Shown here: piece by piece, positions 7,533 through 11,212 of the stretch | Position numbering within the stretch: position 1 is the first letter of the stretch | How the letters are laid out: each line of letters begins with the position of its first letter | DNA from: a virus | Virus record (IMG/VR): IMGVR_UViG_3300037156_000064 | Location: 1-26,370 of that record | Strand: one strand, 5' to 3' | Length of the DNA: 26,370 nt | The notes under the pieces: model-generated | What the model was told of the DNA's origin: nothing | Databases searched by the model: none | What the model saw: the letters and a program-made list of their open reading frames with translations, nothing else | Made by a program: the position numbers and the translations under genes

Positions 7533-7688
7533 TTAGTGGCTCTCCATCCAGCGCTTACGCTCCCAGAACGTACCAGTCTTCCGACCGTCATGGAAACCGT
7601 TTCGACGGCCAGATCGGTAGCCTGCTATCCGGCCAAAGATGTAACCGAACAGCGCGAACCCGGTGCAAACTGCGATCTGCGCAAGCAT
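7533..7688 (-). CDS. Single-TM micro-protein (51 aa)
   Basis: 51 aa, below the length usually called. It begins MLAQIAVCTGFALFGYIFGR: one hydrophobic helix (about residues 4-20) followed by a strongly basic tail (RSGRRNGFHDGRKTG, then FWERKRW). The positive-inside rule predicts N-out/C-in. The ATG overlaps the TGA of the adaptor gene (TGATG), and AAGGA lies 5 nt upstream, which supports real translation. Both ends fit the neighbours exactly. The function is unknown. A holin-like or membrane-anchoring role is possible, but no endolysin or spanin lies beside it. Confidence 0.7.
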   Translation of the reverse strand: MLAQIAVCTGFALFGYIFGRIAGYRSGRRNGFHDGRKTGTFWERKRWMESH

Positions 7689-8356
7689 CACGGTCCTTCC
7701 GGATGGCGCAGCTCGCCGCCGCGGTAGGTATCCTTGCGATCGCGCCCTTCGCCAAGGTTCTTCAGCGCGGCACAGGCGCTAACAAAGCGCGCTTCGTAGG
7801 TGTCACCCATGCTGTCGATGCCAGCGGTCTTCTTCATCCACGAGCTGGCCTCGGACAAGGCACCGTAGAGTAGCGCATCGTAGGCGTGCTCGCTGAGCCA
7901 AGTGCCAGTCGGGTTATCCACCAGCGACCCAGGCCGGTAAAAATAGTTTAACTCGCAGGCGTAGGCGAGATCGGGTGTCGGCCCCATCAGGATGCTGGTC
8001 GTGTCCGCGTCGGCATCGAACAACGAGTAAGCGAAAGGGGTGCCTTTAGTATTCGGGTTGGGCCAGACCTGCCGGATATAGCTCACGTCCTTGTTGAGCA
8101 GATAGCTGTAATCGCCTGTTACCGGATCGATAACCGCCAGACTGGCTGGGGCCAGGAAATCAGCCGGCAGCGCGAGATACGGGCTACCGATGTCTAGATT
8201 ACCAGTAACCCCACGGCGAAACGAAGGTAACTGTACGACAAACCAAATTCTTTCTTCAGATTCCTGAACAAAGCGAGGGATCATAGCGATAAAATCGTCG
8301 CTGTCGTAGGTAGTATACGACCTAACGTCCGACGTTATTACCGCGAGAGTGGTCAT
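7688..8356 (-). CDS. Head-tail adaptor-like protein (222 aa)
   Basis: 222 aa. Motifs in order: FIAMIPRFVQESEERIWFVV, then YLALPADFLAPASLAV, MGPTPDLAYACELNYFYRP, and a helical end with WLSEHAYDALLYGALSEASS. This order (FI..AE.RI, YLALP.DFL, GPTPD..Y.....Y, LLYGAL.EA) matches the phage adaptor proteins that join portal and tail, of the kind named for phage SU10. The match is from memory. It lies downstream of the connector and upstream of tail genes, consistent with head-tail joining. The ribosome site is weak (GAAGAAG, within the end of the preceding gene). Confidence 0.72.
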   Translation of the reverse strand: MTTLAVITSDVRSYTTYDSDDFIAMIPRFVQESEERIWFVVQLPSFRRGVTGNLDIGSPYLALPADFLAPASLAVIDPVTGDYSYLLNKDVSYIRQVWPNPNTKGTPFAYSLFDADADTTSILMGPTPDLAYACELNYFYRPGSLVDNPTGTWLSEHAYDALLYGALSEASSWMKKTAGIDSMGDTYEARFVSACAALKNLGEGRDRKDTYRGGELRHPEGP

Positions 8357-9052: not shown

Positions 9053-9949
9053 CTACTGATCCTCTTCTGGCGCACACCGAATAAAGGTCTTTCCAGTAGC
9101 GTTTTTAGCCGTACCTTTTAATATGCGGCTAACCAAACCTATTCTAAATCCATAGAATCTATCCGCGTTGGACGCCCCCGAAAATACGCGTCCATCATCT
9201 ATACACTTAACTTGTATCTGTCTAGCTTTGAGCGCCTTACCGATATTGGACGCCCACGCAGTGTTCATGGCCTCGCTGGGGTTCTTTGATAGCTCACGTC
9301 GCGCGGCTGACATTTTCTGCCGTGTCTCTACGGAAAGTTGTCGACCGATTTGCCACGCGCTCATTTTCGCGCGAGTTTCTTCGCTATGTTTTTTACCCTT
9401 CGTCCAAGGTACCCGCCCTTTATTCGCGGCGCTGATTTTTTGCCTCGTTTCTTCGGCTACCGCGCGTCCTCGTAGGTTAGAAGGGTGCCCTTTCTGCGCC
9501 GCGCTCATTTTAGCCCGGGTTTCATCGGTATGTTTTCGACCGGTTAAAAACGCGACGCGCTTATCGTGGTGACTGGGCGGCATTTTTCGGCCGCGGTTGG
9601 CATCGCCAATCTTTTTCCGGGTTTCCTCGGGCAGCGTACCGCCTTCACCCCCATAAGAGATATTATACTCCGGCTTATATTTGGCGATGGCCTCGCACTC
9701 GTAAGCCTTAGCGAGCTCCTCGTCGTCTAGGAAATCGAAAAGCACTTCGAAAACGAAGTTCTCTTGGCCGTACTTACGGATGGCGTTGTGCAGGTAGTGT
9801 CCCGGCGCGCCTCGGCCATTAGCAGTCTGCCGATGCTGCGCTTCGCGCTGCTTAAGACCACGTCCGGTATAGCCTATGTACGTGTGCCCATTTACAAGGT
9901 TCTTCGCCTGATAAACAACTACCTTTGGCTCTGTAGCTGGCTTAGCCAT
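9053..9949 (-). CDS. GIY-YIG homing endonuclease with NUMOD3 repeats
   Basis: 298 aa. The N-terminal GIY-YIG domain has VVY at 11-13, YIG at 24-26, a following Arg/Gln/His segment (GLKQREAQHR), the likely catalytic Glu near 84-86 in YECEAIAKY, and KPEYN at 92-96. Five NUMOD3-type DNA-binding repeats follow (EETRKKIGDANRGR-like, about residues 107-217). The C-terminal ~50 residues look like an IENR1/NUMOD1 helix-turn-helix. This is the layout of free-standing phage homing endonucleases related to the Seg family and I-TevI. It separates the connector from the zinc-ribbon gene with 3 nt and 0 nt spacing, so it is a clean insertion and not intron-borne. It is visibly more AT-rich than its neighbours. 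No frameshift seen, so it may be active. Confidence 0.92.
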   Translation of the reverse strand: MAKPATEPKVVVYQAKNLVNGHTYIGYTGRGLKQREAQHRQTANGRGAPGHYLHNAIRKYGQENFVFEVLFDFLDDEELAKAYECEAIAKYKPEYNISYGGEGGTLPEETRKKIGDANRGRKMPPSHHDKRVAFLTGRKHTDETRAKMSAAQKGHPSNLRGRAVAEETRQKISAANKGRVPWTKGKKHSEETRAKMSAWQIGRQLSVETRQKMSAARRELSKNPSEAMNTAWASNIGKALKARQIQVKCIDDGRVFSGASNADRFYGFRIGLVSRILKGTAKNATGKTFIRCAPEEDQ

Positions 9950-9952
9950 TGT

Positions 9953-10702
9953 TTAGCGTCCGTGCGCGGTACGGTACGAACTACTGCGGGGAACAATCTT
10001 CAAGACCGCCTTCTCGCGATCTTCCTGAGCCGCCGCTAAGAAGGTGGCCTCGTAGTCGTCGTGCAACCGGATGATGCGTTGTTCTTGAAACATCACGGCC
10101 CAGCGCGTGTCGGCTCGGTCTGCTGTGAGCACCTTTACTGCGATATAGTACGCCAGACCGGCAATAAGTGCGGGCAAGAACCTGAACGGCACGTCCATGT
10201 TGTTGCCGAAGTCGCCCGGATCATCGATACGGACCAGCGACCAGTAGACCAGCGTGTATGGGCCACCCTCACCGGGCAGCGGCCAGATGTTGGCGACCGG
10301 CGCTGCCTGCTGGCGATCGTACCATACCTCTGTCGGCCGGCCGGTGATGCCGGGATTGGTACGTGTCGCCTGCGTCGAGACGCTGACCCTCGTTAGGTTG
10401 TATCGGGTCGGCCCCGAGTTACCCGCCGTGCCGGGTGGGATCTGAACCATCTGCTCGATCGTGTCGACGATGTCGCTGCCGAGCGTGTACTGGCCGACGC
10501 CGTAAGTAAGCAACTGGGTGCGCTCTTGCACCGTCCAAAGGTTGATCCCACGATTCGACCATTCTAGCATCAACAGGGCGAGACTGCGCCGCGCCGATCG
10601 CATCTCATAGCCGGTACGAACCTCGACGCCACAGCGTTCGTAGGCCTCTTCGATGATCTCTGTAATGTTGAGGTCGAAGACCGTGGTACCTGAAAGGGCG
10701 AT
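9953..10702 (-). CDS. Head-tail connector-like protein, apparent AUC start (249 aa)
   Basis: The frame from 10702 reads (I)ALSGTTVFDLNITEIIEE, AYERCGV, then MRSARRSLALLMLEWSNRGI with NLWTV, and continues to residue 249. SGT..F....I..I..EA..RCGV followed by R.ARR.L......W...G.NLW is the conserved start of a podophage connector/tail-tube family I recognise. The first AUG (10603) would remove the first 33 residues, including that motif. No ATG, GTG or TTG exists in frame between the UAG of the upstream gene (10712-10714) and 10603. AUC at 10700-10702 sits 5 nt after a perfect AGGAGG. I infer initiation at AUC. Alternatives: an ATG-to-ATC sequencing error, or UAG readthrough, since the upstream gene is in the same frame. 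Confidence 0.8.
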   Translation of the reverse strand: MALSGTTVFDLNITEIIEEAYERCGVEVRTGYEMRSARRSLALLMLEWSNRGINLWTVQERTQLLTYGVGQYTLGSDIVDTIEQMVQIPPGTAGNSGPTRYNLTRVSVSTQATRTNPGITGRPTEVWYDRQQAAPVANIWPLPGEGGPYTLVYWSLVRIDDPGDFGNNMDVPFRFLPALIAGLAYYIAVKVLTADRADTRWAVMFQEQRIIRLHDDYEATFLAAAQEDREKAVLKIVPRSSSYRTAHGR

Positions 10703-10714
10703 AGCAGCCTCCTA
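10700..10714 (-). promoter_or_regulatory. Strong ribosome site with AUC start, overlapping a UAG
   Basis: Minus-strand TAGGAGGCTGCTATC: the stop of the 166-aa gene (TAG) contributes the first bases of AGGAGG (10708-10713), followed by a 5-nt spacer and ATC at 10702-10700. The spacing is ideal for initiation at ATC and for no other codon nearby. It also couples the two genes, because the terminating ribosome would already sit on the site. Confidence 0.7.
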
Positions 10715-11212
10715 CCGCCAGGAAACCGTGATATCGGGGGCGCCCGTAGTTACGATCGTCAGCCCCGTGGAAAATGCGATATCGTACTGGAACGGTCCCG
10801 ACAAATTTAAGCTGTTGATGGTGGCGATCTTGGTGCCGGAACCCACCAGGCTGTCATAGACCGTCGTCACCGAGGCGACCGTGCCGTCGGCATTGATATT
10901 GACCAGGTGCAGCACACCAGCGCCGGATTTGACCGTCGTAGTCGTCGAGGTCGTGATGTTGGTAAACGAGAATCCCGCCTGCTGGGTGGTAATCGTCGAC
11001 TGGTCGCTTGGAAAGGTTACCGAGACACTACCAGCCATGGTCTTCTGGCCGAGCGGTCCGGCGATGGTGATATCCGAACCGCTGGTTGGATTGCCAGAGC
11101 TATCGACCAGCGTGACGGCGGGCACATAGACGTTGTTCTTGCCCGCGCCGCTGGCCAGCGCGACCAGGAAACCGGCAAACCAGTCCTTGGAGGCGAACTT
11201 ACCGAGGGCCAT
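10712..11212 (-). CDS. Putative virion structural protein (166 aa)
   Basis: 166 aa. A helical start (MALGKFASKDWFAGFLVALA) is followed by beta-rich, Thr/Ser/Val/Gly-rich sequence ending DITVSWR. Segments such as KNNVYVPAVTLVDSSGNPTS suggest a beta-sandwich. There is no Cys, TM or signal sequence. GAGG lies close before the ATG, and AGGAAA a little further up. It is read in the same frame as the connector, and its UAG is the only stop between them. Not recognised beyond its composition; a decoration or joining protein by position. Confidence 0.6.
   Translation of the reverse strand: MALGKFASKDWFAGFLVALASGAGKNNVYVPAVTLVDSSGNPTSGSDITIAGPLGQKTMAGSVSVTFPSDQSTITTQQAGFSFTNITTSTTTTVKSGAGVLHLVNINADGTVASVTTVYDSLVGSGTKIATINSLNLSGPFQYDIAFSTGLTIVTTGAPDITVSWR

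Follow-up and report, generated by a model that had tools for sequence, protein, structure and literature searches.

The adaptor gene and its surroundings

The window, by which we mean the whole 26,370-base stretch of DNA analysed here (an IMG/VR record), belongs to a tailed phage and holds a head module with terminase, portal and capsid. The adaptor gene and the features that bear on its start site are listed below (SD, Shine-Dalgarno sequence).

9053..9949, minus strand: GIY-YIG/NUMOD3 homing endonuclease gene, directly after the adaptor gene; a relative lies behind an ATC start in L237
9953..10702, minus strand: adaptor (connector) gene, an open frame of 249 codons counted from the ATC, with its stop at 9955-9953
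10601..10603, minus strand: first canonical in-frame start, an ATG at codon 34, without an SD; rejected as initiator
10700..10702, minus strand: predicted ATC start codon, matching the ATG/GTG position of homologues; ATC in the relatives L217, L218 and L233, ATT in L226
10703..10707, minus strand: spacer CTGCT, 5 nt, of identical length across the relatives with ATC or ATT
10708..10713, minus strand: SD AGGAGG, 5 nt before the ATC (-10.2 kcal/mol)
10712..10714, minus strand: in-frame TAG that ends the upstream gene, overlaps the SD and closes the frame 3 codons ahead of the ATC
10712..11212, minus strand: upstream gene for a putative virion protein of 166 aa, in the same frame as the adaptor; not the adaptor's neighbour in L217 and L218
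13256..14179, minus strand: major capsid protein gene, used as bait for near relatives

The adaptor protein matches PHROG 12985 (E 2.5e-21), and the Pfam family SU10_adaptor (PF24175) is matched by 41 of the 46 aligned homologues, the window protein itself falling below threshold. An AlphaFold2 model (pLDDT 82, residues 1-10 at low confidence) is closest to the portal-tail adaptor chains of phages VP1, A4, GP4, N4, crAss001 and SU10, with a best E of 1.5e-7 and TM-scores of about 0.4-0.5. The label "connector" in the original prediction thus denotes the right kind of protein, but judging from the profile matches and the model the most fitting name is SU10-like portal-tail adaptor, a predicted head-tail joining ring. 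The window and its relatives with ATC or ATT starts have one adaptor copy of this PHROG 12985-type family per record. A second window protein with an SU10_adaptor match (7688-8356, E 3e-18) has an ordinary ATG and a weak SD.

No canonical start at the conserved N-terminus

At the start site, the minus strand reads TGGCGG-TAG-GAGG-CTGCT-ATC-GCC-CTT-TCA-GGT. As had been predicted from the letters of the window, there is no in-frame NTG codon between the TAG (10714-10712) and the ATG at codon 34 (10603-10601), and a canonical in-frame start is unavailable at the N-terminus that homology demands. The prediction had also aligned the ATC with the family's initiator, and indeed the aligned codon is ATG or GTG in the best 80 homologues of the first search (at most 47% identical), except for L039, which is an incomplete contig, and L005, which starts at an ATG 8 codons upstream. 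The arrangement of a perfect AGGAGG, a gap of 5 nt and an ATC was likewise described correctly, with the correction that the ATC itself sits at 10702-10700. The pairing energy of this SD is tied for second among the 32 window genes, and the N-terminal peptide predicted from the AUC start is (M)ALSGTTVFDLNITEIIEEAYER. A hairpin predicted at window positions 10694-10726 (GGCGGUAG...CUAUCGCC; -12.4 kcal/mol, z -1.3) would cover part of the SD and the AUC, but it is neither significant nor conserved in the relatives.

Translation from a downstream canonical codon, the AUG at 10603 in the window, would give a shortened adaptor. Codon 34 is the first in-frame NTG not only in the window but also in L218 and L226; the site is not common to the relatives, however, as the first NTG lies at codon 11 in L217 and in L233 (TTG), and an SD is absent at 10603. 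Initiation there would also sacrifice helix 1 (residues 13-24 in the model) and the residues E19, A20, E22, G25 and G31, invariant in the alignment, all of which are encoded before codon 34. The original prediction had named homologues that start at the equivalent of this AUG as evidence that would count against it, and none was found. We consider a downstream start very improbable.

Relatives keep ATC or ATT at the same codon

Near relatives were sought in other IMG/VR datasets with the neighbouring major capsid protein as bait, so that the choice of relatives was blind to the start codon. Four were found, from four other IMG datasets, and at the codon in question they have ATC (L217, L218, L233) or ATT (L226). 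Their adaptor proteins are 85% (L218), 76% (L217), 60% (L233) and 57% (L226) identical to that of the window, and with the window they are the only five adaptors with ATC or ATT that we found. Their frames are intact, at 231-249 codons. Among the window, L218 and L217, whose proteins are 76-85% identical, 45-66% of the codons for identical residues differ, which argues that the shared ATC does not merely reflect recent common descent and that the genes are under purifying selection.

The rest of the family uses canonical starts. When the profile hits at all loci were considered, 209 of 218 had a canonical start that coincided with the aligned position or lay close to it, the remaining nine being one incomplete locus, two misplaced by a partial profile match (with an ATG present), one GTG (a Planktothrix/Synechococcus phage, 7 codons in) and the five adaptors with ATC or ATT. 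Across the roughly 220 family members, all complete starts other than these five are thus ATG, GTG or TTG. A collection-wide pattern scan returned 120 hits, all of which belong to the family and have a canonical start a few codons further up. No close relative came from looking for DNA identical or nearly identical to the site, or from a search with the upstream protein.

The recurrence of the arrangement in separate phage genomes rules out a sequencing or assembly error behind which the true genome would have ATG at 10702-10700. Such an error might have been suspected, given that the window is an assembled, incomplete virus record, that a single base separates ATG from ATC, and that about 210 homologues have NTG here. 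It would, however, need to have recurred at one codon across five assemblies, since contigs from other datasets show ATC three times and ATT once at this codon with equal SD spacing; we give it next to no credence. An equally negligible probability attaches to the idea that the gene, having lost its start codon, no longer works or is not needed. Mutation of the start is a common first lesion, but the frames are intact, the protein is conserved over synonymous divergence, and the records hold no second copy of this adaptor family that could stand in for it.

The relatives also bear on a possible fusion of the adaptor to the upstream protein through readthrough of the UAG at 10714-10712, a reading suggested by the upstream gene of the window, which shares the adaptor's frame and stops at exactly that UAG. 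In L218 and L217, by contrast, the upstream gene stops 67 and 142 nt before the ATC, respectively, while the nearest in-frame stop is a TGA in L233 and, in L226, a TAA directly before the ATT. Because the upstream gene and its stop vary in this way between the relatives, a readthrough fusion is not an option common to them. No homologue carries such an extension, and TAG serves as an ordinary stop elsewhere in the window; readthrough is, in our estimation, slightly less credible still than a downstream start. Recoding of TAG was considered separately and rejected, since translation with table 11 leaves the window genes intact and TAG is the stop of several of them. The block TAGGAGGCTGC[TC]ATC is kept in L217 and L218 despite their earlier upstream stops, which indicates that the SD and the ATC belong to the adaptor and not to whichever gene happens to end upstream. 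In the same two genomes a leader of about 45 nt before the SD (L217:14172-14216, L218:12497-12541) is well conserved, though the upstream genes differ.

In summary, the prediction that the gene truly starts at AUC, after a perfect SD, is supported by relatives in which this codon is again ATC or else ATT. We conclude from these comparisons that translation of the adaptor very probably begins at AUC 10702-10700.

A strong SD accompanies the ATC and ATT starts

All five adaptors with ATC or ATT have [A/G]GGAGG (AGGAGG or GGGAGG), spaced 5 nt from the start, and their SD energies of -10.2 to -11.0 kcal/mol compare with a median of -4.5 kcal/mol in 169 distinct homologues with NTG starts. GGAGG occurs in only three of these 169, two of which have a non-AUG start, namely HTVC027P (TTG) and Planktothrix phage Pag-Yong1/Synechococcus phage MinM2 (GTG). 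With relatedness ignored, the association between a strong SD and ATC or ATT has a Fisher p of 4e-8 in the family, and of 0.002 within the clade described below when the endonuclease start of L237 is counted. In independent pairs taken from the tree, the strong SD goes with ATC or ATT in four of four (p 0.125), too few for significance alone; when all non-ATG starts are included, the six informative pairs all agree (p 0.03), while the SD is equal in four further pairs. The tightest comparison is between L226 (ACAGGAGGCGTAA-ATT) and L221 (ACAGGTGGCATAG-ATG), with proteins that are 93% identical: L226 combines AGGAGG with ATT, whereas its sisters L221 and L235 combine AGGTGG with ATG. Within the clade, a scan for an SD with ATC or ATT elsewhere turned up no family-supported genes besides the adaptors and the endonuclease of L237; in most of the remaining hits a real ATG comes directly afterwards.

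The window falls within a ten-member clade (support 100/100) that contains all five adaptors with ATC or ATT and five with ATG. At least four changes of start state are needed within this clade, and there may have been several gains of ATC or ATT or several losses, as the tree leaves both directions.

Around L237, the endonuclease genes add a further observation. L217 and L237 have relatives of the window endonuclease (9053-9949) close to the adaptor, at differing positions. The GIY-YIG/NUMOD3 endonuclease ORF at L237:7103-7993 opens with AGGAGGCTTAA-ATC-ACC-GTT-TCC-GGC-CTC, that is, with an ATC behind AGGAGG; its protein begins ITVSGL..., and an early NTG is absent. This opening is similar to that of the adaptor (IALSGL in L217), while the L237 adaptor itself comes after the endonuclease and has its own ATG and a weak SD. 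We infer that in L237 a homing endonuclease gene would have been inserted just behind the adaptor's ATC start.

A proposed mechanism and its possible regulation

The weakness of an AUC or AUU start is probably compensated by the near-perfect SD. In the mechanism we propose, the duplex between AGGAGG and the anti-SD would hold the 30S subunit in a position where the AUC occupies the P site, and fMet-tRNA would initiate there despite a mismatch at the third codon position, which IF3 disfavours. The strong SD would offset part of the resulting loss, so that output might come close to that of the AUG with weak SD in the sister phages.

A further possibility, which we regard as rather unlikely, is that the AUC start is a regulatory device, with adaptor output set by the IF3 level or ribosome state during infection or by coupling to upstream termination. 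Non-canonical starts are repressed by IF3 (PMC5472188), sigR and infC work in this manner, and in S. aureus AUU and AUA starts yield about 10% of the AUG level, in one case depending on the medium (PMC13009471). In the window, L226 and L233, moreover, the SD either overlaps the upstream stop or lies right beside it. Against such a role, this tight upstream stop is missing in L217 and L218, the sister phages manage with AUG and a weak SD, and there is no phage IF3 or near-relative tRNA to act as helper: nine related records contain no phage-encoded IF3, and the one phage-encoded tRNA among ten records is in the distant record of L228, leaving a helper role unsupported. A bolder extension would make the initiation codon an evolving control knob, with repeated switches between AUG with a weak SD and AUC or AUU with a strong one, the latter state tying adaptor synthesis to IF3 level or ribosome state late in infection; this would be the first such control of a virion part, and we judge it marginally less likely even than the regulatory device as such.

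Leaving regulation aside, the AUC start with its compensating SD would be a mechanism of a known kind, and what is new, as far as can be told, is its setting in a phage virion gene and the repeated switching. A limited search of the open-access literature brought up no phage virion gene with an AUC or AUU start, which is weak evidence of absence. The adaptor offers a conserved AUC or AUU start in such a gene, with close relatives that have AUG. Starts outside ATG, GTG and TTG escape standard gene callers, and annotations will consequently truncate or misplace the genes that have them. Pairs in which the start codon changes along with the SD are in addition a natural experiment on how initiation strength is split between the SD and codon pairing, and they bear on whether phages use IF3-sensitive starts.

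Comparison with known non-canonical starts

In E. coli, infC and pcnB start at AUU, and infC is autogenously controlled by IF3. The adaptor shares with these genes a natural start of the AUC/AUU type, but its link to IF3 is only inferred, and its product is not IF3, so a feedback loop of the infC type does not arise.

In Streptomyces, infC starts with ATC and sigR with GTC behind a conserved ribosome binding site, AGGAGGTG, and IF3 represses starts other than AUG, GUG and UUG (PMC5472188). As with the adaptor, a non-NUG start is combined with a strong ribosome binding site conserved among relatives, and a minority of relatives use an alternative codon (GTT in Streptomyces, ATT among the adaptors). 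The Streptomyces genes differ in that they encode cellular regulators for which the IF3 effect is demonstrated, whereas the adaptor is a predicted phage virion gene; moreover, half of the adaptor's close relatives use ATG.

The S. aureus genes cvfC1 (AUU), ccpN (AUA) and infC (AUA) have extended SDs, and their starts are known from Ribo-Ret evidence and from the reporters mentioned above (PMC13009471). Like the adaptor, they show short spacing and conservation across species, but they are cellular genes of a low-GC Gram-positive organism, while the adaptor is known from metagenomic contigs.

The nearest parallel within the adaptor family itself is gp64 of the cultured Pelagibacter phage HTVC027P, which has a non-AUG start directly after TAGGAGG. 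The annotated TTG of gp64 is, however, a standard start, the spacing is 4 nt, and the protein is distant (about 34-37% identity). At this locus (L250:2985-3003) the TTG follows CTCGTAGGAGGC, a sequence that resembles the block of L217 and L218.
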